A DNA stretch of 64,000 nt from Lachnospiraceae bacterium. GTDB taxonomy: Bacteria > Bacillota > Clostridia > Lachnospirales > Lachnospiraceae. The position numbers and the translations under genes are program-made. The stretch lies in contig JAILQX010000047.1 of the NCBI GenBank assembly GCA_024698705.1, positions 186,001-250,000 of the forward strand, read 5' to 3'. Below, in pieces: positions 50,448 through 64,000 of the stretch (within the stretch, counting starts at the first letter, position 1; each line of letters begins with the position of its first letter). Below the pieces are notes generated by a model. The model did not search any database and had not been told where the DNA came from. It saw only the letters and a list, made by a program, of their open reading frames with translations.

Positions 50448-52820
50448 ATGAGTATTAAAATTGCTTTGGCAGGTAATCCGAACTGTGGTAAGACCACATT
50501 GTTCAACGAACTCACCGGCTCAAACCAGTTTGTGGGAAACTGGCCCGGTGTAACAGTGGAAAAGAAGGAAGGAAAGCTTAAAAAGCACAGTGATGTAACC
50601 ATCATGGACCTTCCGGGTATTTATTCACTTTCACCTTACACACTTGAGGAAGTGATCTCGAGAAATTATCTTATTGAAGAAAGACCCGATGTAATACTTA
50701 ACGTCATCGACGGAACGAACCTTGAAAGAAACCTTTATCTGACGACCCAGCTCACAGAGCTCGGTATCCCGGTGGTCATAGCCGTCAATATGATGGACGT
50801 TGTCCGCAAGAACGGTGACAAGATCAACACCGAAGAGCTTTCAAGACAGTTGGGCTGCAAGGTTGTTGAGATATCGGCACTTAAGGCAACGGGACTTGAA
50901 GAAGCCATGGAGGTTGCCATAAAGGCAGCAGACGGAGAGCCCACGGTTCCCAAGCATACATTCTCGGGTGCGGTTGAACATGCCATCGCTCATATCGAGG
51001 AGGCGGCAGTCCATGACCTTGATGAGAATCAGCAGCGCTGGTACGCAATCAAGATATTCGAAAGAGATGAAAAAGTACTTGAGAAACTTAAGATTCCCGA
51101 AGATAAGCTTGCACACATCGAAGAGGACATAAAGGCAGCAGAGAAGGAACTCGATGATGATGCCGAGTCTATCATAACCAATGAAAGATATATCTATATA
51201 GCGTCTATAATAAAATCATGCTACAAGAAAAAAAATGTCGGAGGACTTACGACTTCCGATAAGATAGATAAGATCGTGACCAACAGATGGCTGGGACTTC
51301 CCATATTTGCAATCATAATGTTCTTCGTATACTGGATCGCAATGGTTGGTGTCGGTGCATCGGCAACCGATTGGGCAAATGATGGTCTGTTCGGAGACGG
51401 ATGGCATCTGTTCGGTATCGGCAGCGGCAAATATGAAGAAGTTGCTGAAGCATACAATGATGCATCACTCATAGTCGATGGATATGATGCCTATGTGGAA
51501 GAAAACGGAAGCGAGCCCACGGGCAGCTTCGAATACGAGATAGAAGATGAGGAAACACTTGCGGTAGAGGTTGCCGAGGCATCGCTTGAAGATTATGATG
51601 CAGCGGTAAAGACACTTGAAGAGATAGGCGACGAACCCGATCCCGCCGATTACGGTGTGTGGGTTCCGGGCGTTCCGACCCTTATCGAATCGGGACTTGA
51701 CGCCATAGGAACAGCAGACTGGTTAAAAGGACTTATACTTGACGGTATCGTAGCCGGTGTCGGCGCGGTACTCGGATTCGTCCCCCAGATGCTGGTACTG
51801 TTCTTTATGCTCGCATTCCTTGAGGCATGCGGTTACATGGCAAGAATAGCATTCGTACTTGACAGGATATTCAGAAAGTTCGGTTTATCAGGCAAGAGTT
51901 TCATACCAATGCTTATCGGTACAGGCTGCGGTATTCCCGGTATCATGGCATCAAGAACGATAGAAAATGAACGTGACCGTCGTATGACAGTCATAACGAC
52001 AACATTTATCCCCTGCGGAGCCAAGGTTCCGTTTATAGCGATGATCGCGGGTGCCATCTTCTCGGGCTCGGCATGGGTTGCAACATCGGCTTATTTCATA
52101 GGTATGGCAGCAATCATAATATCGGGCATCATGCTTAAGAAGACAAAGATGTTCGCAGGAGATCCGGCTCCGTTCGTTATGGAGCTTCCCGCATATCATA
52201 TGCCCACACTTGCAAATGTACTCAGATCAATGTGGGAGCGTGGCTGGTCATTCATCAAGAAGGCGGGAACTATCATCCTTCTTTCAACAATATTTGTATG
52301 GTTTACATCATTTTTCGGATTTACATCGGACGGCTTCAGAATGCTTGCTGAGGACGAACTTGATCTATCCTTGCTCGCAAAACTCGGAAGTGCCATTGCC
52401 TGGATATTCAAGCCGCTCGGCTTCGGAACATGGGAAGCGACCGTTGCTTCCATAACAGGTCTTGTTGCCAAGGAGAACATAGTGGGTACGATGGGTATCC
52501 TTTATGGTGCGGCAGGCAATGCATATGAAACACTTGCTCAGGAATTCACCGGCATAACCGGATATTCATTCCTTGTATTCAACCTTCTGTGCGCACCTTG
52601 TTTTGCAGCCATCGGTGCTATAAAGAGAGAAATGAACAATGCAAAATGGACATGGTTCGCGATCGGTTATCAGTGCGGTTTTGCTTACCTGATCGCACTT
52701 ATGATCAACCAGTTCGGAGGTATGTTCACCGGTAACGGAAATGTGGTGGGATTTATATTTGCCATAGCAGCATTTGTATTCATCATCTATAATCTTTTCA
52801 GAAAAGAAAAGACTGTTTGA
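50448..52820 (+). CDS. feoB: Ferrous iron transporter FeoB
   Basis: A 790-residue ferrous iron permease. The N-terminal G domain has GNPNCGKTT (residues 9-17), VEKKEGKL, DLPGIYSLSPYT and NMMD. A helical spacer follows, then the membrane domain with GTGCGIPGIMASRT and PCGAKVPFIA. An acidic insertion of about 75 residues (roughly 328-405, rich in Glu/Asp) sits after the first membrane segment, in a predicted external loop. The ATG at 50448 has AAAGGA upstream; an in-frame upstream start at 50415 is less likely. Confidence 0.96.
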   Translation: MSIKIALAGNPNCGKTTLFNELTGSNQFVGNWPGVTVEKKEGKLKKHSDVTIMDLPGIYSLSPYTLEEVISRNYLIEERPDVILNVIDGTNLERNLYLTTQLTELGIPVVIAVNMMDVVRKNGDKINTEELSRQLGCKVVEISALKATGLEEAMEVAIKAADGEPTVPKHTFSGAVEHAIAHIEEAAVHDLDENQQRWYAIKIFERDEKVLEKLKIPEDKLAHIEEDIKAAEKELDDDAESIITNERYIYIASIIKSCYKKKNVGGLTTSDKIDKIVTNRWLGLPIFAIIMFFVYWIAMVGVGASATDWANDGLFGDGWHLFGIGSGKYEEVAEAYNDASLIVDGYDAYVEENGSEPTGSFEYEIEDEETLAVEVAEASLEDYDAAVKTLEEIGDEPDPADYGVWVPGVPTLIESGLDAIGTADWLKGLILDGIVAGVGAVLGFVPQMLVLFFMLAFLEACGYMARIAFVLDRIFRKFGLSGKSFIPMLIGTGCGIPGIMASRTIENERDRRMTVITTTFIPCGAKVPFIAMIAGAIFSGSAWVATSAYFIGMAAIIISGIMLKKTKMFAGDPAPFVMELPAYHMPTLANVLRSMWERGWSFIKKAGTIILLSTIFVWFTSFFGFTSDGFRMLAEDELDLSLLAKLGSAIAWIFKPLGFGTWEATVASITGLVAKENIVGTMGILYGAAGNAYETLAQEFTGITGYSFLVFNLLCAPCFAAIGAIKREMNNAKWTWFAIGYQCGFAYLIALMINQFGGMFTGNGNVVGFIFAIAAFVFIIYNLFRKEKTV

Positions 52821-52861
52821 CATTAAGTTTCATACAATATATACTGTTCTACAGATAAAGA

Positions 52862-52907
52862 AAATATGCTCGGTGCGAAACACCGGGCATATTTGCGATT
52901 TTTTTTA
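52862..52907 (+). terminator. Terminator after feoB
   Basis: AAATATGC-T-CGGTG-CGAAA-CACCG-G-GCATATTT stem followed by eight T residues. Confidence 0.9.
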
Positions 52908-52925
52908 TCATTATTTCACGTAAAA

Positions 52926-52965
52926 GTGTTTCATTTCATGGTATCACGGAGCGATTTTGAAACAC
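52926..52965 (+). promoter_or_regulatory. Inverted repeat before the phosphonate cluster
   Basis: GTGTTTCA (52926-52933) and TGAAACAC (52958-52965) are exact inverted copies 24 bases apart, just upstream of the first gene. Possible operator, perhaps for the winged-helix domain encoded by that gene. No clear -35/-10 pair was recognised. Confidence 0.4.
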
Positions 52966-52986
52966 ATTTACACAAACGGAGACGAT

Positions 52987-53886
52987 ATGGAAAAGCTTTC
53001 AAGAAAACAATTTGATGTACTCGAAGCTCTGATTGGAGCGGACGAAACACTGAGTCAGAGAAAACTCGAGGAGAAGACCGGTCATTCGCTTAGTACCATA
53101 AACCGTGTTATCAAGGAACTGAGTGATGCGGGTTATGTGAAAGACGGTGATGTCACAAAGGAAGGAAAAGAGGCCATGGAACCCTACAGGGTTAAAAGGG
53201 CGATATTCATTGCCGCAGGCTTCGGTTCGAGACTCGTTCCGGTCACATTGAACACACCCAAGCCACTTGTGCGTGTCAACGGTCAGAGGATAATAGACGG
53301 GCTTCTGGATGCGTGTCTGGGAGTAGGGATCGATGAGATCTACCTTGTAAGAGGATATCTTGCGGAGCAGTTTGATCTTCTCAAATACAAGTATCCGATG
53401 ATCAAGTTTCTGGAGAATCCCTCATACAATGAGGCAAACAATATCAGCTCGGCCATGTGCGCGAGATTTTTGATGAGCAATTCCTATGTGTTTGAGGCGG
53501 ATCTTCTGATCTCAAATCCGGCTATCATAAAGAAATATCATTATACCTCGGATTTCCTGGGTATCAGGAAAGAATGGTCCGATGACTGGTGTCTTACCGT
53601 CAAGGACAATGTGATCGTCGAGGAAAAGGTTGGCGGTCAGGGTGACAACAATTATCAGATGGTCGGCATTTCATACTGGAATGATGAGGACGGCCATAAA
53701 CTCGCCGAGCATATCGAGAAGGTATTCAACATGCCGGGCGGCAAGGAGAGATACTGGGAACAGGTACCGCTCGTTGAATTCAAAAAAGAGTACAAGGTAG
53801 AGATCATGGAGTGCAAAGAGAGCGACATCATAGAGATCGACACCTACAGGGAACTGAAAGCAATAGATAAGACTTACGATGTATAA
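52987..53886 (+). CDS. Winged-helix domain fused to a LicC-like nucleotidyltransferase
   Basis: A 299-residue fusion. Residues about 1-65 form a MarR-like winged helix (RKQFDVLEALIGADETLSQ, SLSTINRVIKELSDAGYV). Residues 72-299 are a sugar-phosphate-type nucleotidyltransferase with AAGFGSRLVPVTLNTPKPLV, ENPSYNEANNISS and VFEADLLI, close to choline-phosphate cytidylyltransferase LicC and to 2-aminoethylphosphonate cytidylyltransferase PntC. In this context CTP activation of 2-aminoethylphosphonate is the best guess. ATG at 52987 with GGAGA upstream. Confidence 0.82.
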   Translation: MEKLSRKQFDVLEALIGADETLSQRKLEEKTGHSLSTINRVIKELSDAGYVKDGDVTKEGKEAMEPYRVKRAIFIAAGFGSRLVPVTLNTPKPLVRVNGQRIIDGLLDACLGVGIDEIYLVRGYLAEQFDLLKYKYPMIKFLENPSYNEANNISSAMCARFLMSNSYVFEADLLISNPAIIKKYHYTSDFLGIRKEWSDDWCLTVKDNVIVEEKVGGQGDNNYQMVGISYWNDEDGHKLAEHIEKVFNMPGGKERYWEQVPLVEFKKEYKVEIMECKESDIIEIDTYRELKAIDKTYDV

Positions 53887-53890
53887 TGTA

Positions 53891-53980
53891 ACGTTCCGAA
53901 GGAACGTCACAAGGCGCGAGCCCTTCGCCGAAGGCGAATCATACATGGGCGAGCATTTGTAGTGCCCTGCAAGGGCACTA
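53891..53980 (+). repeat. Three-hairpin intergenic element
   Basis: In the 131-bp gap: ACGTTCC-GAA-GGAACGT (53891-53907), TTCGCC-GAA-GGCGAA (53924-53938) and TAGTGCCCT-GCA-AGGGCACTA (53960-53980), all perfect with three-base loops, separated by GCGAGC words (also at 53990). No T-run follows. It looks like a REP-type palindromic element. Confidence 0.7.
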
Positions 53981-54017
53981 TGCAGCGCGAGCGTTCCCCA
54001 ATATAGAAGGAGGATAT

Positions 54018-55139
54018 ATGAATATCAAGAGAAATATACTTCTTAATCCCGGCCCGTCAACCACAACGGATACGGTCAAAATGGCACAGGTAGTACCGGA
54101 TATCTGTCCTAGAGAAAAAGAATTTGCATCAATGATGAAGGACATAAGAAAGGATCTCGTAAAGATCGTTCACGGCGGTGACGATTACACATCCGTTCTG
54201 TTCTGCGGATCGGGAACCATAAATATTGATATCTGCCTGAATTCATTGCTGCCGGAAGGAAAAAAGATACTTGTTGTCAATAACGGAGCCTACAGCACAA
54301 GAGCGGTTGAGATCTGTGAATATTACGGTATGCCCCATATAGATCTGAAGTTTCCTGTTGACGAGCGGCCCAATCTTGTCAAGGTGGAAGAGGTGCTTAA
54401 GGAAAACCCAGACATAGCGCTTGTTCATACGACCCATAACGAGACCGGTACGGGTATACTCAATCCGATAAGAGAAATAGGTGAACTGGCTCACAGGTAC
54501 GGTGCGGTATTTACTGTGGATACGACATCAACCTATGCAATGAGACCGATCGACGTTTATAAGGACAATATCGATTTTTGTATGGCTTCGGCCCAGAAGG
54601 GACTTATGGCGATGACGGGACTTTCATTTGTCATAGGAAAGACGGATATCATAAAGAAGTCGGCGGATTATCCGAAGAGATCTTACTATTGCAATCTTTT
54701 CTTACAATATGATTATTTTGAAAAAACGGGCGAGATGCATTTCACTCCTCCGGTACAGACCATATATGCAACGGTACAGGCGCTGAAAGAGTATTTCGAA
54801 GAAGGCGAGGAGGCCAAATGGGCACGCCACACAAGAGTTTTCGATGCCATTCATGAAGGACTGGATGAGCTTGGATTCAAGGATGTAATAAAGAGAGATG
54901 AACAGGCCGGACTCGTGGTCTCTGCCATTTACCCGAATGATGAGAACTGGGATTTCATGAAGGTCCATGATTATTGCTATGAGAGGGGCTTTACCATTTA
55001 TCCCGGCAAGATATCAACGACCAATACATTCCGGCTTTGTGCTCTGGGTGCGATAGACAGGGAAGATATAGTTGAGTTTTTCAAGGTCTTCAGGGCGGCA
55101 TTGGATGAATATAACATAGCTGTTCCGGTCAGATATTAG
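54018..55139 (+). CDS. phnW: 2-aminoethylphosphonate-pyruvate-type transaminase
   Basis: A 373-residue PLP enzyme of the alanine-glyoxylate/AEP transaminase group (class V). NPGPSTTTDTVKMAQ is the N-terminal signature, GSGTINIDICL binds cofactor, and the PLP lysine is K194 in ASAQKGLM. In the phosphonate pathway it would make 2-aminoethylphosphonate from phosphonoacetaldehyde and alanine. The function is inferred from the neighbouring PEP mutase and decarboxylase genes. AAGGAGG precedes the ATG. Confidence 0.85.
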   Translation: MNIKRNILLNPGPSTTTDTVKMAQVVPDICPREKEFASMMKDIRKDLVKIVHGGDDYTSVLFCGSGTINIDICLNSLLPEGKKILVVNNGAYSTRAVEICEYYGMPHIDLKFPVDERPNLVKVEEVLKENPDIALVHTTHNETGTGILNPIREIGELAHRYGAVFTVDTTSTYAMRPIDVYKDNIDFCMASAQKGLMAMTGLSFVIGKTDIIKKSADYPKRSYYCNLFLQYDYFEKTGEMHFTPPVQTIYATVQALKEYFEEGEEAKWARHTRVFDAIHEGLDELGFKDVIKRDEQAGLVVSAIYPNDENWDFMKVHDYCYERGFTIYPGKISTTNTFRLCALGAIDREDIVEFFKVFRAALDEYNIAVPVRY

Positions 55140-55159
55140 AAGAGGAGGTACAGCGTAGT

Positions 55160-56455
55160 ATGAGTATCGTATATACATGTTTTACAACGGATGTGATACA
55201 TGAAGGTCACATGAATATCATAAAGGAAGCACGCAAATACGGTGATGTTGTCGTTGGTGTCCTCTCAGACGAAGCCATGATACGTTTCAACCGTTTTCCT
55301 ACAGTAAGCTTTGAAGAGCGTAAAAAGATAGTTGAGGAGATCCCGGATGTAAGCCGCGTCATCGTTCAGAAAAACATTCATTACGATGAGATAATAGAGG
55401 AGCTGAAGCCTGACTATGTCATTCATGGAAATAACTGGTCGGAAGGACCGATGAAGGCCATAAGGGACAGGGTCGTAAGCCTTCTTGAAAATTATGGCGG
55501 AAAGGTGATCGATGTGCCTTATACCGTCAATGAAAATGTGAAGCTCGTGGACAGAAAGATCCGCGAGAAGCTTGCTATGCCGGAATACAGACGCCGCAGA
55601 TTAAAGCAGCTGATAGATCTGTGCCCGATCGTTAAGACGCTTGAGGTCCACAGCGGACTGACGGGTCTCATAGCCGAAAAGACGATCGTAGCAAATAACG
55701 GAGAACTGGATCAGTTCGATGCAATGTGGATCAGTTCATTGTGTGATTCGACAGCAAAAGGCAAACCCGATATCGAACTTGTGGATATGACATCACGTTT
55801 CCGTACGATAGATGATGTCATGGAGGTCACCACAAAGCCTATTATATTTGACGGCGATACCGGCGGACTTCCGGAGCATTTTGTATATACTGTCAGATCA
55901 CTTGAAAGAATGGGTGTATCTGCGGTCATCATAGAAGATAAAACGGGCCTGAAGAAGAATTCGCTCTTCGGTACAGAGGTTGCACAGACACAGGATTCGA
56001 TCGAAAACTTCTGTGACAAGATCGCAGCCGGCAAGAAGGTTCAGCTTACGGATGATTTCATGATCATAGCAAGGATAGAAAGCCTGATCCTCGAGCAGGG
56101 AATGGAGGATGCTCTTACAAGAGCAAAGGCCTATGTCGGGGCGGGAGCTGACGGCATCATGATCCACTCAAGGAAAAAGAACCCCGATGAGATACTTGAA
56201 TTCTGCGACAGATTCAGGGAGACGGATAAAACGACACCTATAGTTGTCGTGCCTACGTCATTTAATTCGGTTACGGAGGCGGAACTGGCATCACACGGCG
56301 TAAATATCGTCATTTACGCAAATCAGCTGACAAGAAGCGCATTTCCCGCAATGGAACAGACAGCCAAGGATATACTCAAATATCACCGCGCACTTGAGGT
56401 TGATGACAGACTTATGTCTATAAAGAGTATCATTTCCCTTATAGATGAGTTGTAA
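55160..56455 (+). CDS. Cytidylyltransferase-like domain fused to PEP mutase
   Basis: A 431-residue bifunctional protein. Residues about 1-140 are a cytidylyltransferase fold with HEGH at 14-17 (the family HxGH), but the usual RTxGIST motif was not found. Residues about 150-431 are phosphoenolpyruvate mutase with FDGDTGG and the diagnostic EDKTGLKKNS (259-268). PEP mutase makes phosphonopyruvate and is the gateway to all C-P natural products. The partner decarboxylase follows. GGAGG precedes the ATG; 20 bases separate it from the transaminase gene. Confidence 0.9.
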   Translation: MSIVYTCFTTDVIHEGHMNIIKEARKYGDVVVGVLSDEAMIRFNRFPTVSFEERKKIVEEIPDVSRVIVQKNIHYDEIIEELKPDYVIHGNNWSEGPMKAIRDRVVSLLENYGGKVIDVPYTVNENVKLVDRKIREKLAMPEYRRRRLKQLIDLCPIVKTLEVHSGLTGLIAEKTIVANNGELDQFDAMWISSLCDSTAKGKPDIELVDMTSRFRTIDDVMEVTTKPIIFDGDTGGLPEHFVYTVRSLERMGVSAVIIEDKTGLKKNSLFGTEVAQTQDSIENFCDKIAAGKKVQLTDDFMIIARIESLILEQGMEDALTRAKAYVGAGADGIMIHSRKKNPDEILEFCDRFRETDKTTPIVVVPTSFNSVTEAELASHGVNIVIYANQLTRSAFPAMEQTAKDILKYHRALEVDDRLMSIKSIISLIDEL

Positions 56456-56497
56456 GATGCACAAGTTATGTAAACTAAAATACAGGAGATCAATATA

Positions 56498-57613
56498 TTG
56501 AAAGCAGAAGATTTTACCGCGATCCTGGGGGCGGAGTTTTATACCGGTGTTCCGGATTCCCAGCTTAAAGCACTTTGCAATTATCTGATGGATACATATG
56601 GGACAGATGAGAAGCATCATATCATAGCAGCCAATGAAGGAAACTGTACGGCACTTGCCGCAGGCTATCATCTGGCTACGAGCAAGGTCCCGGTAGTTTA
56701 TATGCAGAACAGCGGAGAGGGCAATATCATCAATCCCGTGGCATCCCTGCTGAATGAGAAGGTATACGGCATACCTGTGATATTTGTTATCGGATGGAGG
56801 GGCGAGCCCGGAGTTCACGACGAACCGCAGCATATATATCAGGGTGAGGTGACGATAAAGCTCCTTGACGATATGAATATCAGATCATTTGTTGTTACAA
56901 AAGAGACAGGGACCGATGAACTTCGAAAGGTCTTTGAGGATTTCAAAAAGGATCTTGCAAAAGGGCTTCAGGTTGCATTTGTGATCAAAAAAGGTGCTCT
57001 TGAATACGGAGGAAAGGTTGATTATTCAAACAGTAATACCATGGTCAGAGAGGATATCATAAAGCATATCCTCAAGTATTCCGGAGAGGATCCGATCGTT
57101 TCCACAACAGGTAAGGCATCAAGGGAACTGTTCGAAGCGAGAGTCGCAAGAAATGAAGAGCATAAGTATGATTTCCTGACAGTAGGGTCAATGGGACACA
57201 GTTCATCGATCGCACTGGGTGTTGCGATCAACAGACCGGAACTTAAGATATGGTGCATAGACGGCGACGGAGCGATGCTCATGCATATGGGAGCATTGGC
57301 TGTCATAGGCTCGTACAAGCCTGCAAACCTCGTGCATATACTGATAAACAACGGTGCACATGAGACCGTAGGGGGAATGCCGACGGTCGCAGGCGGAGTT
57401 GACGCAGTAGGTATCGCAAAAGCTTGCGGATATCCTTATGCTGTGAGTGTAGACAACTTTGAAAAGCTGGACAGCGAGTTGGATAAGGCACGTGAACGTC
57501 ATGAACTGTGTTTCATAGAAGTCAAATGCTCGATAGGCGCGAGGGAGGATCTCGGAAGACCGACCACCACAGCTATGGAGAACAAAGAGAATTTCATGAA
57601 TTATATAAAATGA
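56498..57613 (+). CDS. Phosphonopyruvate decarboxylase
   Basis: A 371-residue ThDP enzyme. It has TGVPDSQLKALCNYL near the N-terminus, the catalytic Glu in NEGNCTALAAGYHL (about residue 47), and the ThDP-binding GDGAMLMHMG (about 256-265) with NNGAHETVGGMPT. It decarboxylates phosphonopyruvate to phosphonoacetaldehyde, pulling the unfavourable PEP mutase reaction forward. The start is TTG with CAGGAGATC upstream, an unusual codon. It ends the cluster, with a terminator after it. Confidence 0.92.
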   Translation: MKAEDFTAILGAEFYTGVPDSQLKALCNYLMDTYGTDEKHHIIAANEGNCTALAAGYHLATSKVPVVYMQNSGEGNIINPVASLLNEKVYGIPVIFVIGWRGEPGVHDEPQHIYQGEVTIKLLDDMNIRSFVVTKETGTDELRKVFEDFKKDLAKGLQVAFVIKKGALEYGGKVDYSNSNTMVREDIIKHILKYSGEDPIVSTTGKASRELFEARVARNEEHKYDFLTVGSMGHSSSIALGVAINRPELKIWCIDGDGAMLMHMGALAVIGSYKPANLVHILINNGAHETVGGMPTVAGGVDAVGIAKACGYPYAVSVDNFEKLDSELDKARERHELCFIEVKCSIGAREDLGRPTTTAMENKENFMNYIK

Positions 57614-57625
57614 TATCGTCAAATG

Positions 57626-57652
57626 AGGCCGCCTTCCGGGCGGCCTTATTTC
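57626..57652 (+). terminator. Terminator after the phosphonate cluster
   Basis: AGGCCGCC-5 bases-GGCGGCCT followed by TATTT. Strong stem, modest T-tract. Confidence 0.8.
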
Positions 57653-57738
57653 ATGCATATACAAGATGATATCCATCAAAACGGGAACGGCGGAAAAAGC
57701 CCGGTGAAAAGGATCATAAAAAAATCATAGAAAAAGTA

Positions 57739-57767
57739 TTGACACGTAACTGATATAGGTGTATATA
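57739..57767 (+). promoter_or_regulatory. Promoter of the GntR-ABC operon
   Basis: TTGACA (57739-57744) and TATATA (57762-57767), 17 bases apart. A near-palindrome, GTGTATATATAACAC, covers the -10 and may be the GntR operator. Confidence 0.7.
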
Positions 57768-57851
57768 TAACACATAAACAGTAGAGGGGCGCAACGAGTA
57801 AAAAGGGAGTGACATTATAAACAGGGGATGCATGAATATAATGAGGTGACT

Positions 57852-58226
57852 ATGAAAATATCACAGACTTCAGGCGTACCGATCTATCAGCAGATAGCCG
57901 AAAGTTTCAAACTTGACATCCTTGAAGGAAGATTGAAGATGGGGGAATATCTTCCTTCGGTCAGGGCACTTGCCAAGGATCTCAAGATCAGTGTCATAAC
58001 TACCTTGAAGGCGTATGAACAGCTTGAGAACGAAGGACTTATAACGGCCATCCAGGGCAAAGGCTACTGTGTCAACGCGCAGGATGCCAACATGCTCATG
58101 GAGCAGCATATGCGGAAGGTTGAAGAAGGTCTCATGCAGGCGATAGCCTCGGCGAGAATAGCGGGCTTAAGCTCGGAAGAGCTGATCGATACGTTAAAAA
58201 CATTACTGACTTTGGAGGAGAATTAA
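57852..58226 (+). CDS. YtrA-type GntR family regulator
   Basis: A 124-residue regulator. The GntR winged helix is seen in GVPIYQQIAESFKLDIL, YLPSVRALAKDLKIS and LENEGLITAIQGKGYCV, followed by the short helical tail of the YtrA subfamily, which usually controls ABC transporter operons. The ATG at 57852 has GAGGTG upstream; an in-frame ATG at 57828 is an alternative. It lies two bases before the ATPase gene. Confidence 0.92.
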   Translation: MKISQTSGVPIYQQIAESFKLDILEGRLKMGEYLPSVRALAKDLKISVITTLKAYEQLENEGLITAIQGKGYCVNAQDANMLMEQHMRKVEEGLMQAIASARIAGLSSEELIDTLKTLLTLEEN

Positions 58227-58228
58227 AA

Positions 58229-59119
58229 ATGGAATTTGTAAGCGCGATTTCCGGGGAAAACATTGTAAAAAAGTATAAGGGGTTTGAACTGAACATACCT
58301 AAGCTGGATATTCCGAAAGGATATTCAACGGCGCTTATCGGAGAAAACGGAGCAGGCAAATCAACATTGCTCGATATCCTTGCCGGTATAAGACTCGACT
58401 ATAAGGGAAGCCTTTTATTCTTCGGTAAATACAATGACAGGGACAGGGAAAACGATCCCGTTGTCAAAACAAAGATAGGCTATGAAGGAACGGGTAATTA
58501 TTATCTGCCGATGTGGACATTGAGGCAGGGCAGGGATCTGCAGAAACTTTTGTTTCCGAATTTCGATGAGAACAAATATGATGAGATCTGCAGACAGCTT
58601 GCGGTTCCGGATGATATGAACAAGAAGATCTCCGAACTTTCGGATGGTAACAATATGAAGATCAAACTGGCCGGTGTTCTTGCAAGAGACACGGATGTGC
58701 TCCTGCTCGATGAGCCCGCTTCACCTCTCGACCCTCTGATGAGAGACAAACTGTGTGAGATGATAAGGGATTATCTCCTTCGTGAGGAAGGAGAAAAGAG
58801 CGTTCTTTTCTCTACGCACAACATAGCCGATATGGAAGCAGTGACCGATTATGCGATCATCGTTGAAAACGGAAGTATAGTCGAACAGGGTTTTGTGGAA
58901 GAACTGAAAGAAAAATACACACTGGTAAAAGGTGAAAAAGAGGATATAGAAGTTGCAAAGAAAAGCCTGTATTCGATAAGTGTTAACAACTACGGATACG
59001 AGGGCATATGCCTTGCGGATAAGCTTGATGAACTTGCCGGGCTTGACGTTGCTTTTGAAACTCCTACATTATCACAGATATGTGTAGCCGTAATGAAGCA
59101 GAATACAAAGCTTTATTAG
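58229..59119 (+). CDS. ABC transporter ATP-binding protein
   Basis: A 296-residue ATPase. Walker A is GENGAGKST, the signature is the degenerate LSDGNNMK, Walker B is VLLLDEPASPLDP, and the H-loop is FSTHN. A C-terminal region of about 75 residues is unassigned. It forms an exporter with the two membrane proteins downstream. Substrate unknown; YtrA-controlled systems often answer to cell-wall antibiotics. Confidence 0.9.
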   Translation: MEFVSAISGENIVKKYKGFELNIPKLDIPKGYSTALIGENGAGKSTLLDILAGIRLDYKGSLLFFGKYNDRDRENDPVVKTKIGYEGTGNYYLPMWTLRQGRDLQKLLFPNFDENKYDEICRQLAVPDDMNKKISELSDGNNMKIKLAGVLARDTDVLLLDEPASPLDPLMRDKLCEMIRDYLLREEGEKSVLFSTHNIADMEAVTDYAIIVENGSIVEQGFVEELKEKYTLVKGEKEDIEVAKKSLYSISVNNYGYEGICLADKLDELAGLDVAFETPTLSQICVAVMKQNTKLY

Positions 59120-59153
59120 TTGCAGTTGAAAGAAATGAGACGGGAGTTTTAAA

Positions 59154-60872
59154 ATGAAGAATTTATTGAAGTCATACAGGATATTTATATCGGATATGTA
59201 CCTGATCCTCGGAGTCTTTGTTGCGACGGCAACCATACTTATATTTTCGGCACTGGGTGGCAGAGCATTTGGCAGTATGGGTATTATCCTGTTTTATGCC
59301 CTTGCGGCAATGGTGGATCTGTACGGCGATTATTTTGTGATGGTGGGATTCACGGATAAGAAGTTCGACTTCGGATTGCTAAAGAACTCACTGGACGGTA
59401 AAAGGGTCCTCAGGGACGGTGTCCTTGCCGATCAGATCAGAAGAGCGCTACAGTTGCTCATAACAATGGAAGGAAGCTCATTTATAATCTATGCAATAAG
59501 TGAAGGTGAAGACAGAATGTCGCTGCCTGTTACGCTGGGACTTGGAGTTTTGGCAGCATTGATCACATTTACGATAAATACGATATGGTTCAATGTTACA
59601 AGAAACCTCGGCAGCTTTATGGAGATCGGACTGGTGGGAGGTATCGGGATCGCTCTTGATATTATACCCACTGCGATCTTTATACTGATCTCTTTTGACA
59701 ACGAAATAAACATGATACCCATGATACTCGTGTGGGCGATCCTTGCTGTGGTTGTCACATATTGCATGGTGGAAAGGATATCCCTCAGGTTTGACCTGAA
59801 TTTCGGTGATAAGGTTAAGGGCAGATTCGGCTCAGACAGCAAGAAAAGAATATGGATATTTTTCCTGGTTGCTTTTCTCATAAATTATCTTATGGTGCCG
59901 CTCATGTTTTACGGCGAGAGCAAGGGAGTTAATACGATCTGCTTCATGTATGCGCTCATGCTTTATCCGGCGAGCGGAGTCATGATCGGAAAAATGTTCT
60001 CATACGACGAGGGTAAACTGCCGGTCACATTTTATGTGATCTGTCTTCTGACAACCATGCTCATGATGGTGATGTCCGCCGCATCGGTCGTTCTTCCTTC
60101 GGAAACCATTGAAATGAACGGATCAAGTATCTCGGTATTCGATATGACATGCCAGGTAATGCTGATGATCGTATCCTTGATACTCTGGATCGTGCTTTTT
60201 GCAAGCGGTAAGGAAAAGAGAAGAAACGCAGGTTTAAACGGCAGGAAATGGGGCATCTCGATACTTATCATAGTACTCTTTACGGTACTCTATGCGGTAC
60301 GTTTCTTTTTGATGATATGTCTGCCGGGGCTTATGGACGGCAGCGTCAATAAAAATATTCATGAGTTTGCAGCTATCTTCACGGATCCTGCAACCTATAG
60401 AGCCATGGTAGTTACTCTGATCAACTTCTTCCTGACATTTGTACTGTTCCTCGGTGAGGAGTACGGGTGGAGATATTATCTTCAGCCGATAATGCAGTCC
60501 GGATTCGGAAAGAGAGCCGGAGTGCTATTGCTCGGAGTCATCTGGGGACTGTGGCATGCGGGAGCCGATTTCACATATTATTCGGAAGGCTGCGGACCGC
60601 AGACACAGGTCAATCAGATCATTGTATGCGTAACGATCGGTATCTTTATGGCATATGCCTATATGAAGACGGAAAACATATGGGTTCCGATAACCATTCA
60701 TTTTATAAACAACAATCTCATACCGGTATTTGCGGGAGATATTTCATCGGATGTTCTGAGCAACAATGTGATAGCATGGTCTGACCTGCCTGTTGCACTG
60801 GCAGCGGGTCTTGTATTTGCGGTATTTATATTTGCACCGGTATTTAACCGGACAAAAGAAGGGAGTAACTAA
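59154..60872 (+). CDS. ABC permease-like domain fused to CPBP protease domain
   Basis: A 572-residue membrane protein. The first half (about 1-230) has six or so membrane segments and resembles ABC-2-like permeases (DKKFDFGLLKNSLDGKRVL). The second half (about 240-572) is a CPBP intramembrane protease with motif 1 EEYGWRYYLQP, motif 2 GVIWGLWHAG and motif 3 ITIHFINN. CPBP proteins process prenylated or other substrates or act as bacteriocin immunity proteins. The fusion with a permease-like domain is unusual. Confidence 0.75.
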   Translation: MKNLLKSYRIFISDMYLILGVFVATATILIFSALGGRAFGSMGIILFYALAAMVDLYGDYFVMVGFTDKKFDFGLLKNSLDGKRVLRDGVLADQIRRALQLLITMEGSSFIIYAISEGEDRMSLPVTLGLGVLAALITFTINTIWFNVTRNLGSFMEIGLVGGIGIALDIIPTAIFILISFDNEINMIPMILVWAILAVVVTYCMVERISLRFDLNFGDKVKGRFGSDSKKRIWIFFLVAFLINYLMVPLMFYGESKGVNTICFMYALMLYPASGVMIGKMFSYDEGKLPVTFYVICLLTTMLMMVMSAASVVLPSETIEMNGSSISVFDMTCQVMLMIVSLILWIVLFASGKEKRRNAGLNGRKWGISILIIVLFTVLYAVRFFLMICLPGLMDGSVNKNIHEFAAIFTDPATYRAMVVTLINFFLTFVLFLGEEYGWRYYLQPIMQSGFGKRAGVLLLGVIWGLWHAGADFTYYSEGCGPQTQVNQIIVCVTIGIFMAYAYMKTENIWVPITIHFINNNLIPVFAGDISSDVLSNNVIAWSDLPVALAAGLVFAVFIFAPVFNRTKEGSN

Positions 60873-61523
60873 ATGATCAAGGAATTGACTACTGCATATA
60901 AACTGGTTCGGTACGGACTGAGGATAAAACAACAGACATTCTTCGCGATACTTTTCGCGGTGTTGGGTATCGTATTTGAGATACTGATAGGAGAGGAGAC
61001 ACCTCTCGGTGCGATATACATCATCCTTTCTGGAATGTTCCTCTACCAGATGATCCTCACGTCGGATCTGTCAACACTGGTACAGTCTTCGCCCTACAAG
61101 AAGAAGATACAATGCCTCTATCCGGTTGTTTCGCTTATACCGTGGCTGAGCGTTTCGATGGTGATCATAACTATCATACATTGGAATTTTGCAAAGAAGA
61201 GTGAGGAAGCATACGCACAGCAGGCAAATCTGATGATAACACTCGGATTAATAATGTTCATCACGCTTGTTTATTTCGGTATCTGCTATAAATTCTTTAT
61301 CATAAGCACACTTGTCATGGCTTTCTCCATTATGCTCCCGATGGGCGCATTTGCAAGAGGAGGAGTATTTGCGGATAACGGATTAAGTTTCTCGCAGGGA
61401 ACGATCATCGCGTGTATAATGGTAGTTATAGGATCTGTATTATGTATAATACTTACGAATGCATTTTACAGAAGGGACATTTCGAAAATGGCACTCAGAA
61501 ATCTTATGAGAAACATGAAATGA
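60873..61523 (+). CDS. ABC transporter permease subunit, small
   Basis: A 216-residue membrane protein with about six membrane segments; the cytoplasmic SSPYKKKIQCLYP resembles loops of ABC-2-like exporters. It starts directly after the stop of the fusion protein, with GGGAG upstream. It is probably the second membrane subunit of the transporter. Confidence 0.7.
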   Translation: MIKELTTAYKLVRYGLRIKQQTFFAILFAVLGIVFEILIGEETPLGAIYIILSGMFLYQMILTSDLSTLVQSSPYKKKIQCLYPVVSLIPWLSVSMVIITIIHWNFAKKSEEAYAQQANLMITLGLIMFITLVYFGICYKFFIISTLVMAFSIMLPMGAFARGGVFADNGLSFSQGTIIACIMVVIGSVLCIILTNAFYRRDISKMALRNLMRNMK

Positions 61524-61524
61524 T

Positions 61525-62280
61525 ATGAAAGAAACGGTTGTGGTATGTGACAACTCGGAATATCTCACACAGGCCGTGGCATGTGCCGAAAAGGCCGGAG
61601 CAAAGCTTATGACTCATATCGATGCAAAATCGGATATGGGTGATAAGCTTATATTGCGTTTCGGGCCTGACGGAGTTACGCTCACGGGAGCGGGAGGTAC
61701 CATGAGAGGGGATTTTGCATCAATGCTTCCGAGGCTTAAGACCGGCAATATGCAGCACGAACTTCTGGTAAAAGCGGTGCGTATAAAAGGCTGTATTCCG
61801 AAGGTGATGGATGCCACAGCCGGCATGGGTGAAGATTCACTTATACTCGCGGCAGCAGGCTTCGATGTGACGATGTATGAATACAATCCGATCATCGCGG
61901 CGCTTTTGGCGGATGCTATGAAAAGAGCGGTGAACGACACGCAGCTTTGTAATATCGTAAGCCGCATGCACCTTAATTGCGCGGACAGTACAGAAGCTAT
62001 GAAGAATTCCGGAGGGGCATATGATGTGATCCTTCTGGATCCCATGTTTCCGGACAGAAAAAAGAGTGCGCTTGTCAAAAAGAAATTCCAGATCCTTCAT
62101 GATGTTGAAAGACCATGCCTGCATGAACGCGAACTTTTAGAGGCTGCACTCATGGCAAAGGCAAAGAAGACGGTCATAAAACGACCTGTCAAGGGAGCGT
62201 ATCTTGCCGGTATTAAGCCGGACTATTCGCTCGCGGGAAAGGTTATAAGATTTGATGTGATATCCCGTAAGGATATCTGA
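61525..62280 (+). CDS. RsmJ-like class I SAM methyltransferase
   Basis: A 251-residue methyltransferase. DATAGMGEDSLILAAAGFDV is the SAM motif of RsmJ (16S rRNA m2G1516), with MYEYNPIIAALL and ILLDPMFPDRKKSA, all typical. The N-terminus, with VACAEKAGAKLM, is also family-like. It follows the ABC permease by one base with no clear ribosome site, and is probably expressed through coupling. Confidence 0.85.
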   Translation: MKETVVVCDNSEYLTQAVACAEKAGAKLMTHIDAKSDMGDKLILRFGPDGVTLTGAGGTMRGDFASMLPRLKTGNMQHELLVKAVRIKGCIPKVMDATAGMGEDSLILAAAGFDVTMYEYNPIIAALLADAMKRAVNDTQLCNIVSRMHLNCADSTEAMKNSGGAYDVILLDPMFPDRKKSALVKKKFQILHDVERPCLHERELLEAALMAKAKKTVIKRPVKGAYLAGIKPDYSLAGKVIRFDVISRKDI

Positions 62281-62288
62281 GGAGACTT

Positions 62289-64000
62289 ATGGAAAACAAT
62301 AAAAAACGATATTTGATACCGTCTGTGATCATTGCATTGCTTCCGGTCATAATATTGCTCATCGCCGGAAAAAACAGCGTGATCGCAATAAGGGATAATC
62401 TGGATCTGTGCACGCCGATGTACATGATGTTAAAGAACAAAGGCAAGTTCTTTCTTCAGGATGTCGGAGCACCTTTCTTAGGCGGTATATACAGGGATAT
62501 CCTTCCTTCGGAAATAAATATCTATTCGGTCCTGTACATGCTCCTGCCGGGCTTTTACGCATATGCTGCAATATATTTGGTAAGGGGGATCGTCGCTCTT
62601 TTCGGAATGTATCTTCTGGGTAAAGAACTCCCGGACGCAGAGGGCGGAAGATATACCATGATCTGCGGTGCAATGCTGGCAGTATTGCCGATCCTTCCTT
62701 ATCTTGGTATATATATCGCGGCTTTGCCGTTTCTTGCGTTTCTTTTGATAAGAGCATATAAAAGGCCGAGAGTTTGGGTTTATATATTGTTACTTTTCTT
62801 TCCTGTCTTCAGCGATCTGCTTTATATCGGGATATCGGTCACATCGTATCTGTTCGTATACTCAGTATACAGAAGCATAAAGGATAAGAGATTCAGGGGC
62901 AGGCTTTTCGGCGCATGGCTCGTATTGCTTGCGGGGTATGCGGGCTGTTCGTACAGACTTATAAGATTCACATATCGGATAATAGACAATAAATACACAC
63001 TTGTCGGGAGGGAAAGTTATGTTAACAATGCAGTTGACATAATATTGAGAATAATTAAAGGGATTACCGGCGGAGATGAGCTGAACGTCAGCATTATCGC
63101 ATGTATTATCCTTCCGTGCATTATTGCAATAATATATTTCATATTGGTTGACATAAAGATTAAGAAAGCGGAGCATGTTCTGTATTTCAAGCTCCTTGCA
63201 CTCATAATAACTAACAGTATCATCGCCGGAGTATGTGCTTATAAACCCATAAATGATGTGATAAGCAGGTATGTACTCAATCCGATGGGACAGGGCTATG
63301 TGAGGACGGATATGATGAATCCGTTCATATGGCTGGTCATATTTGCCTGTGTGTTGACGGAGGCGGGTGAAAAAATAAAACGATGGGTACCCGTTCTGAT
63401 CGGTACGGCCATGGCGGTCGCAATGATACTTATCCCTGCCGGGTACAATGATGCGGGCAACACGCTTTACAGTATGATCGGTGCGGAAAGCGGCAAGCCG
63501 ACATACGAAGAATATTTCGAAGAAGACCTGATGAGTGAAGTGATGGACGATCTGGATTATTCCGGAGAGTGGGTCGTTACCTACGGCATTTCACCGTCTG
63601 TTGCCGAGTACAGCGGTATGAAGACAGTGGACGGAAATATCGGGTCGGATATCATATTTTTTAGCGATGATTTTAAGAAGATAGTGGGACCTGCCATAGA
63701 GGCAAACAAGGAGGCCGAAAAGGATTTTGAGGAATTCAGGGGATACAGGCTCTATTCGGCGGAGTACGGGGTACTTACGGATGAGTATGGCAGATGCGAT
63801 ATAACAAGCGACGATCTTAACGTTGGTCTGGATAATCTCAAGGATTATTGCTGCAGATATATCATTTCGGCGGTGGAGATAGAAAATACAAAAGAGGCGG
63901 GTATAACCGAAGTCGCTTCCTACAAAAGAGGCAGCGGAAAGCTCTATGTATATAAGCCTGTTTCGAGATATATGGAGAAGGAGCATTCCGATATCGCCTA
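62289..64000 (+). CDS. Large membrane protein, DUF6044-like, reaches window edge
   Basis: The frame starting at ATG 62289 (GAGGAG upstream) stays open for 570 codons to the last base; the final two bases are TA, so a stop may fall exactly at the edge. The protein has about ten membrane segments through residue 400, with loops like LDLCTPMYMMLK and LGGIYRDILPSE, then a soluble C-terminal domain. This resembles DUF6044 (YkoS-like) proteins, possibly glycan or glycosyl-transfer related. The family is only a tentative match. Confidence 0.6.
   Translation, partial: MENNKKRYLIPSVIIALLPVIILLIAGKNSVIAIRDNLDLCTPMYMMLKNKGKFFLQDVGAPFLGGIYRDILPSEINIYSVLYMLLPGFYAYAAIYLVRGIVALFGMYLLGKELPDAEGGRYTMICGAMLAVLPILPYLGIYIAALPFLAFLLIRAYKRPRVWVYILLLFFPVFSDLLYIGISVTSYLFVYSVYRSIKDKRFRGRLFGAWLVLLAGYAGCSYRLIRFTYRIIDNKYTLVGRESYVNNAVDIILRIIKGITGGDELNVSIIACIILPCIIAIIYFILVDIKIKKAEHVLYFKLLALIITNSIIAGVCAYKPINDVISRYVLNPMGQGYVRTDMMNPFIWLVIFACVLTEAGEKIKRWVPVLIGTAMAVAMILIPAGYNDAGNTLYSMIGAESGKPTYEEYFEEDLMSEVMDDLDYSGEWVVTYGISPSVAEYSGMKTVDGNIGSDIIFFSDDFKKIVGPAIEANKEAEKDFEEFRGYRLYSAEYGVLTDEYGRCDITSDDLNVGLDNLKDYCCRYIISAVEIENTKEAGITEVASYKRGSGKLYVYKPVSRYMEKEHSDIA

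Follow-up and report, generated by a model that had tools for sequence, protein, structure and literature searches.

In a 64,000-nucleotide stretch of DNA from a Lachnospiraceae bacterium (the window; positions 186001-250000 of contig C21 in genome G000, 2.54 Mb in 54 contigs), we analyzed four adjacent genes predicted to make and activate 2-aminoethylphosphonate (AEP). They lie on the plus strand at window positions 52987-57613 with all frames open, and encode a LicC/PntC-type cytidylyltransferase, an AEP transaminase (AEPT), a phosphoenolpyruvate (PEP) mutase (PepM) and a phosphonopyruvate decarboxylase (Ppd), as shown in Table 1. The frame of the first gene is open from a TTG at 52957 (ORF 52957-53886), and GGAG stands 5' of the ATG at 52987. 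An earlier annotation made from the letters alone (the original prediction) had named all four genes correctly and overlooked two fusions: the mutase gene (55160-56455) consists of two fused domains, the N-terminal one being a cytidylyltransferase, and the first gene begins with a MarR-type winged helix (PF12802).

Table 1. Features of the AEP unit, its flanks and the small membrane-type proteins of the same genome (window coordinates unless a locus is given).
Feature	Position	Strand	Family or remark
LicC/PntC-type cytidylyltransferase with N-terminal winged helix	52987-53886	+	PF12802 + PF00483/PF12804
AEP transaminase (AEPT), class V	54018-55139	+	TIGR03301
Fom1-type cytidylyltransferase domain of the mutase fusion	55160-55573	+	PF01467, residues 1 to ~138
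PEP mutase domain with EDKTGLKKNS	55595-56455	+	TIGR02320
Phosphonopyruvate decarboxylase (Ppd)	56498-57613	+	TIGR03297; TTG start, SD-like AGGAGAT upstream
Promoter-like TTGACA-17-TATACT	52817-52845	+	11/12 matches; overlaps the end of putative feoB
Terminator-like hairpin, 14 pairs then T-run	52862-52894	+	between putative feoB and the AEP unit
Hairpin 3' of Ppd	57626-57646 (about)	+	read by eye; absent from terminator scan hits
Small membrane-type protein	L072:10139-10405	-	conserved motif
Small membrane-type protein	L050:4765-5070	-	conserved motif

Three of the four proteins exceeded the cut-offs of NCBIfam equivalog models. AEPT scored 467.0 bits against TIGR03301 (cut-off 360.8), the mutase 413.1 bits against TIGR02320 (319.55) and Ppd 458.2 bits against TIGR03297 (312.5). 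The best match of AEPT in the Protein Data Bank (PDB) was the AEPT domain of 6pd1 (4.6e-75), with 1m32 at 7.3e-60. The mutase matched 5unc (2.2e-43) and 1m1b (2.5e-36), and its EDKTGLKKNS, which the original prediction had called diagnostic, aligned as an EDKxxxxxNS motif with these solved PEP mutases. No NCBIfam model scored above its cut-off for the LicC/PntC-type enzyme; its best PDB matches were LicC (1jyk, 8.6e-28) and PntC (6pd1, 2.5e-11), and it keeps GxGSR (as GFGSRL), PK and the metal Glu. The family cut-offs, the mutase motif and the PntC-like Glu residues described below thus speak for the previously proposed route. The mutase domain would convert PEP to phosphonopyruvate, Ppd would convert this to phosphonoacetaldehyde, and AEPT would yield AEP, a synthesis that we regard as very probable. 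Activation of AEP to CMP-AEP, presumably by the LicC/PntC-type enzyme, is predicted with good, slightly lower confidence. Only two weak matches to phosphonatase were present in the genome and neither exceeded the cut-off, so that a role of AEPT in PhnX-type AEP breakdown is unlikely. Beyond CMP-AEP, we infer every step, including decoration of the cell surface.

Two cytidylyltransferases and the amine-site residue

The N-terminal domain of the mutase gene (PF01467) had 5x3d as its best PDB match (3.7e-32), with HxGH and the 'PYT' end aligned. We take 5x3d to be the cytidylyltransferase domain of Fom1; its PDB title is only 'Phosphoenolpyruvate phosphomutase'. HxGH was kept in all tabulated rows of this domain (CyTase), in AEP-type and hydroxyethylphosphonate (HEP)-type loci alike, and the domain is therefore probably active, as a second, apparently intact cytidylyltransferase. 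Clusters of the phosphonyl-tailoring (Pnt) kind that have two unrelated nucleotidyltransferases, one mutase-fused and one separate, as the window does, are already described in PMC6697681, which also counts 42 mutases (2.8%) fused to both nucleotidyltransferase types. Such three-domain mutases (LicC+CyTase+PepM) were rejected as members of AEP clusters; those seen accompany an iron-containing alcohol dehydrogenase (Fe-ADH) gene, except in L046, where none was labelled.

Glu104 and Glu196 of Tde-PntC are placed to contact the AEP amine, and Spn-LicC has Asp105 and Asp192 (PMC6697681). The LicC/PntC-type enzyme of the window has Glu at both Tde-PntC sites. In the family set (five LicC rows below 40 bits dropped), 21 of the 23 rows that came from AEP loci had Glu at the E104 site. 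Of the other two rows, one was truncated and one, fused to choline kinase, had Cys; this set comprises 24 AEP-type loci, two of them without a LicC row (L153, L158) and one with an Fe-ADH gene as well (L171). The site was His in all 18 rows from the 17 loci grouped as HEP-type, a grouping in which an Fe-ADH gene was present at every locus except L046 (16/17). His was also found in a LicC-Fe-ADH fusion of other architecture (L048) and in L049, whose C-terminal part had no Fe-ADH match. Among the best 80 YidC-TagF loci described below (five rows below 60 bits dropped), 38 of the 39 AEP-locus rows had Glu and one a gap, and the 11 choline-kinase-locus rows had Asp (3), Ser (4), Pro (3) or Glu (1, an aminotransferase fusion). 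By sequence comparison, then, the residue at the E104 site mostly matches the type of donor gene present (Glu where there is AEPT, His where there is Fe-ADH), and it tends to track the phosphonate made. Two observations go against a simple code: aminotransferase-fused cytidylyltransferases also had Glu (9/9 rows of the best 80), and so did a winged-helix LicC at the choline-gene locus L134, where PepM is absent. Moreover, lineage and function are confounded in this code.

It is also conceivable that the winged-helix LicC activates another phosphorylated amine (e.g., phosphoethanolamine), and that it is the Fom1-type domain that activates AEP. This would account for a pair of cytidylyltransferases that otherwise lacks an explanation, and it agrees with the retention of HxGH, the closeness of the domain to 5x3d, and the presence of close winged-helix LicC genes without PepM in L134, L192 and G150 (L274). 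However, the E104-site pattern, Glu in the AEP rows and His in the HEP-type rows, stands against it, as does a LicC-type gene labelled in 38 of 39 AEP loci of the best 80, and we consider it improbable. The genome itself has one clear LicC-type gene, that of the window; the sole other match covered 53 residues (E 0.002). Separately, radical SAM proteins were seen at the PepM loci L138, L149 and L170, and in L138 (8910-10661, +) the radical SAM protein is fused to a second cytidylyltransferase domain; as a guess, these loci possibly perform a Fom3-like methylation of a CMP-phosphonate.

YidC-TagF fusions and their donor genes

No acceptor transferase, and no match to a LicD-like transferase or glycosyltransferase, was recognized among the ten family-scanned genes at 52957-63998 (the genes before 52.9 kb were listed without a family scan), in line with the original prediction that the transferase is not in the window; candidates were present on other contigs. 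The genome carries two YidC-TagF fusions, on contigs C17 (~141.1-143.0 kb) and C32. The C17 protein scored 95.3 bits against PF02096 (YidC/Oxa1; gathering score 35; PDB 3wo7, 6.2e-13) and 38.0 bits against PF04464 (22.1). Its C-terminal part shows the conserved motifs APSWQ, RPHPQ and TDWS, which resemble TagF motifs. A small membrane-type protein of 60-124 aa with conserved YIDPSAVTYVIQA...FRHKI..FFKK accompanies the fusion: 71 such ORFs, 62 of them with YIDPSA, were found in 71 of the 80 best loci (L172-L251), mostly directly upstream of YidC-TagF. Pfam gave no match in the two small proteins of this type scanned from the genome itself. In addition, YidC-TagF carried a third, LtaS-like sulfatase domain in the same frame in L187, L189, L214, L216, L217 and L249 (frames of 1205-1420 aa). 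A 906 aa YidC-sulfatase fusion adjoins a TagF-type protein just downstream of the HEP-type PepM locus in L044 (12828-15548, +), and a similar pair stands next to AEP genes in L154.

Genes of relatives were called with a simple ORF caller and labelled by phmmer, with proteins of the window and fetched ones as queries; unlabelled genes may therefore hide other donors. In a genus sample of 20 genomes, YidC-TagF was present in 12, a LicC-type match in 11 and PepM in 8. All 11 LicC-type genomes and all 8 PepM genomes had YidC-TagF, with Fisher p-values (7e-5 and 0.005) that are generous, since the 8 genomes without YidC-TagF are only 60-85% complete and absence from them is weak evidence, a point against the association. 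YidC-TagF lay inside the AEP operon in five of the seven AEP-type genomes of the genus, as the first gene in L065, L066, L067 and L068 and as the last in L069. In G151, YidC-TagF and a truncated AEPT were on one contig about 8 kb apart, and in the HEP-type genome G158 the fusion sat with an aminotransferase-fused cytidylyltransferase.

The association extended to the family. Among 397 genomes, PepM was found in 46, YidC-TagF in 21 and both in 13 (Fisher p 1.3e-8), and the two genes were at most 2.5 kb apart in 9 of these 13, one of the nine copies (G301) being absent from the family search results and found in locus L157. AEPT was present in seven of the nine close-pair loci, Fe-ADH in G301, and a radical SAM-CyTase fusion in G332. 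A TagF-type gene without the YidC-TagF label was in or beside three further PepM loci (L038, L044 and L154).

A search of genome contigs with a YidC-TagF alignment gave at least 523 confirmed relatives, of which the best 80 were kept. Lachnospiraceae stood in the titles of 65 of these 80 records, many from rumen or faeces, which fits the gut/rumen-type clostridium proposed originally. PepM with AEPT neighboured the fusion in 39 of the 80 loci (30/53 among loci longer than 18 kb), usually in the order small protein, YidC-TagF, AEPT, CyTase-PepM, LicC, Ppd, with Ppd unlabelled in 4 of the 39; the fusion and all four AEP genes are together, for example, at L209 of Lachnospiraceae bacterium A4. 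Another donor-type gene was found in 22: aminotransferase-type in 12 (including a few weak or partial labels, L246, L250 and L251), choline kinase in 7, LicC alone in 2 and CTP/GFO in 1. None was labelled in the remaining 19, of which 11 were on stretches of 18 kb or less and two (L173, L240) had AEPT next to the fusion at a contig end. Because the best 80 were chosen by similarity to an AEP-linked query, and because the genus contigs recur among them, the AEP share is biased upward, which counts against it; this bias does not explain the choline and other donors.

The fusion could instead build the polymer backbone (e.g., from CDP-glycerol) and merely neighbour the decoration genes, a reading favoured by PF04464 being the CDP-glycerol glycerophosphotransferase family and by LtaS-like sulfatases being common near YidC-TagF. 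But none of the five PF01467 matches in the genome looks like a stand-alone glycerol-3-phosphate cytidylyltransferase that could feed TagF: two are the window and C32 fusions, and the others are frames of 171, 210 and 312 aa, which suggest CoaD, NadD and RibF. Furthermore, YidC-TagF has a different neighbour for each type of donor (AEPT, choline kinase, NTP-AT, or AT5 + CTP/GFO), which would be expected if the fusion uses that donor. A backbone role appears rather unlikely.

By analogy with the phosphocholine pathway, a LicD-family phosphotransferase might attach AEP. The genome search for LicD-type transferases suggested by the original prediction gave two matches, on C32 and C15, although the comparison favours the YidC-TagF fusion as the candidate. 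LicD-like genes were also seen near PepM in L035, L043, L045, L047, L149, L150, L153, L154, L159, L164, L166, L168 and L170, and are mentioned near oral Pnt clusters in PMC6697681. However, the partner inside the operon was YidC-TagF, not LicD, in the five genus genomes named above, and the C32 LicD locus has its own IspD-like and CTP_transf genes; attachment by LicD is thus judged unlikely. One LicD of the genome (626 aa frame; L002:2-3249) follows another protein, which to us looks like the Maf type of flagellin glycosylation, and LicD-based decoration of flagella is possible. Transfer of AEP to diacylglycerol by a CDP-alcohol phosphotransferase, giving a phosphonolipid, could be carried out by either of the two proteins of the genome that match PF01066. 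Both lie away from the cluster, such genes occurred in 14 of 14 control genomes and their presence is therefore uninformative, and relatives' AEP genes are often accompanied by TagF-type and sulfatase-type genes; this outcome seems very unlikely.

The two fusions of the genome differ in their surroundings. The C17 copy is in a glycan locus (initiating sugar transferase, DegT, FlaA1-like and GT2 genes), and no donor gene was labelled over the 45 kb around it (C17:120000-165000). The C32 copy has its own AT5 and CTP/GFO donor-type genes, as in L234 and L246: a fusion of a cytidylyltransferase with a GFO/IDH oxidoreductase and a class V aminotransferase stand next to it (L050:2325-4761, -), and this set may make another CDP-linked donor. 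The C17 protein was 68-70% identical to the AEP-operon copies of five congeners, and in the tree its clade comprised eight AEP-linked rows, C17 itself and the G160 copy.

Several findings stand against C17 as the partner of the window genes and as the AEP transferase. The transferase is unlinked to the AEP cluster in its own genome. The G160 copy in the C17 clade comes without PepM and has an aminotransferase-linked donor, and the AEP label needs six changes on the tree, a count that 24 of 500 shuffles did not exceed. Within the genus, the protein most like C17 (71%) is that of G150, a genome without a PepM hit and absent from the tree, whose winged-helix LicC (73% like that of the window) lies on another contig, in 18 kb without a labelled phosphonate gene (L274); PepM may be missing from this assembly, since the genome is 83% complete. 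In the family, 8 of the 21 YidC-TagF genomes had no PepM, and 33 of the 46 PepM genomes had no YidC-TagF hit at threshold. Finally, the TagF assignment comes from PF04464 scores of 38-54 bits, and a profile search of the PDB with YidC-TagF matched only YidC/Oxa1, not TagF.

Pairing the window with C17 is the simplest reading of these sequences, and we give the C17 YidC-TagF about an even chance of being the AEP transferase. In the proposed mechanism, the four genes would form one transcription unit of Pnt kind, and the likely partner elsewhere would be the C17 fusion with its small 'YIDPSA' membrane protein. The TagF domain, anchored at the membrane by the YidC-like domain, would transfer the AEP phosphonate from CMP-AEP to a lipid-linked or teichoic-type polymer, so that the cell surface would bear AEP. 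This whole explanation is moderately favoured. More tentatively, and with a little less than even confidence, YidC-TagF and the YIDPSAVTY membrane protein may represent a separate class of transferases for surface head groups in gut Clostridia, in which one conserved transferase module works with interchangeable donor modules, be it for AEP, for phosphocholine, for an aminotransferase-linked donor or for the AT5 + CTP/GFO donor. The LicC residue would report the substrate class: Glu would indicate AEP or an aminotransferase-linked amine and His would indicate hydroxyethylphosphonate, with mostly neither residue for choline. Donor and transferase modules would be apart in the organism of the window.

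Boundaries and neighbours of the unit

A promoter-like site precedes the unit and is followed by a hairpin about 90 bases 5' of the first start codon (window 52817-52986); the upstream frame is taken as feoB. The site is weak, with 12 such hits in the region compared with a shuffle mean of 12.2, and terminator-like hits numbered 6 against 4.1 +/- 2.1 in shuffles. This hairpin could simply terminate transcription of the gene before it or could act in attenuation, and the one after Ppd is the probable end of the transcription unit. Further downstream is a separate GntR-ABC gene set (57828-61523), which was rejected as part of the cluster because the second hairpin intervenes and no homologue of GntR or CPBP was labelled next to PepM in those relatives that were searched with the two proteins. 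At the Rfam gathering threshold, the whole window had a single tRNA and no riboswitch. A 1122-aa protein whose first half is DUF6044 lies downstream of the AEP unit (window 62289-64000 and beyond; L033:13290-16658).

Comparison with known systems

The phosphonyl-tailoring steps are called enigmatic in PMC6697681, which gives activation to CMP-AEP as identified and, in the part consulted, names no enzyme for transfer of AEP from CMP-AEP to the surface. Among the titles and abstract openings searched, none described a role of YidC-TagF fusions in decoration with phosphonates or choline. The YidC-TagF class, if true, would supply this last step of the Pnt pathway, and the comparative pattern gives a named candidate transferase for AEP, with two negative predictions, that LicD and CDP-glycerol are not needed. 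It also offers a one-residue prediction of the surface head-group class for gut Lachnospiraceae strains. If commensals bear phosphonate or choline head groups, these could influence how immune systems recognize them and how phages bind.

The window cluster represents a variant of the established Pnt pathway. With the Pnt clusters of Treponema denticola, Atopobium rimae and Olsenella uli (PMC6697681), it shares PEP mutase, Ppd, AEPT and a LicC-type PntC. It differs in that its separate PntC has an N-terminal winged helix, and in having no LicD or glycosyltransferase match among the scanned genes, the candidate transferase being on another contig. Like Fom1 of fosfomycin biosynthesis, it has an N-terminal PF01467 cytidylyltransferase fused to PEP mutase. 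Fom1 activates 2-hydroxyethylphosphonate (PMC6697681), whereas the window has AEPT, and within the 20 kb surrounding the cluster (L033) no gene was labelled as Fe-ADH; the phosphonate is therefore likely AEP. The Lic phosphocholine pathway (LicA, LicC and LicD) has a LicC-type cytidylyltransferase in common with the window, and relatives' YidC-TagF copies also adjoin choline kinase, LicC and a BCCT transporter. In the window, by contrast, Glu replaces Asp at the amine-contacting sites, and the putative transferase is TagF-like rather than LicD. As in the TagF CDP-glycerol glycerophosphotransferases, the C-terminal parts of the C17 and C32 fusions pass the PF04464 gathering score. Unlike TagF-type enzymes, however, the C17/C32 type is fused to a YidC/Oxa1 domain, and donor genes for AEP or choline often lie close to it.

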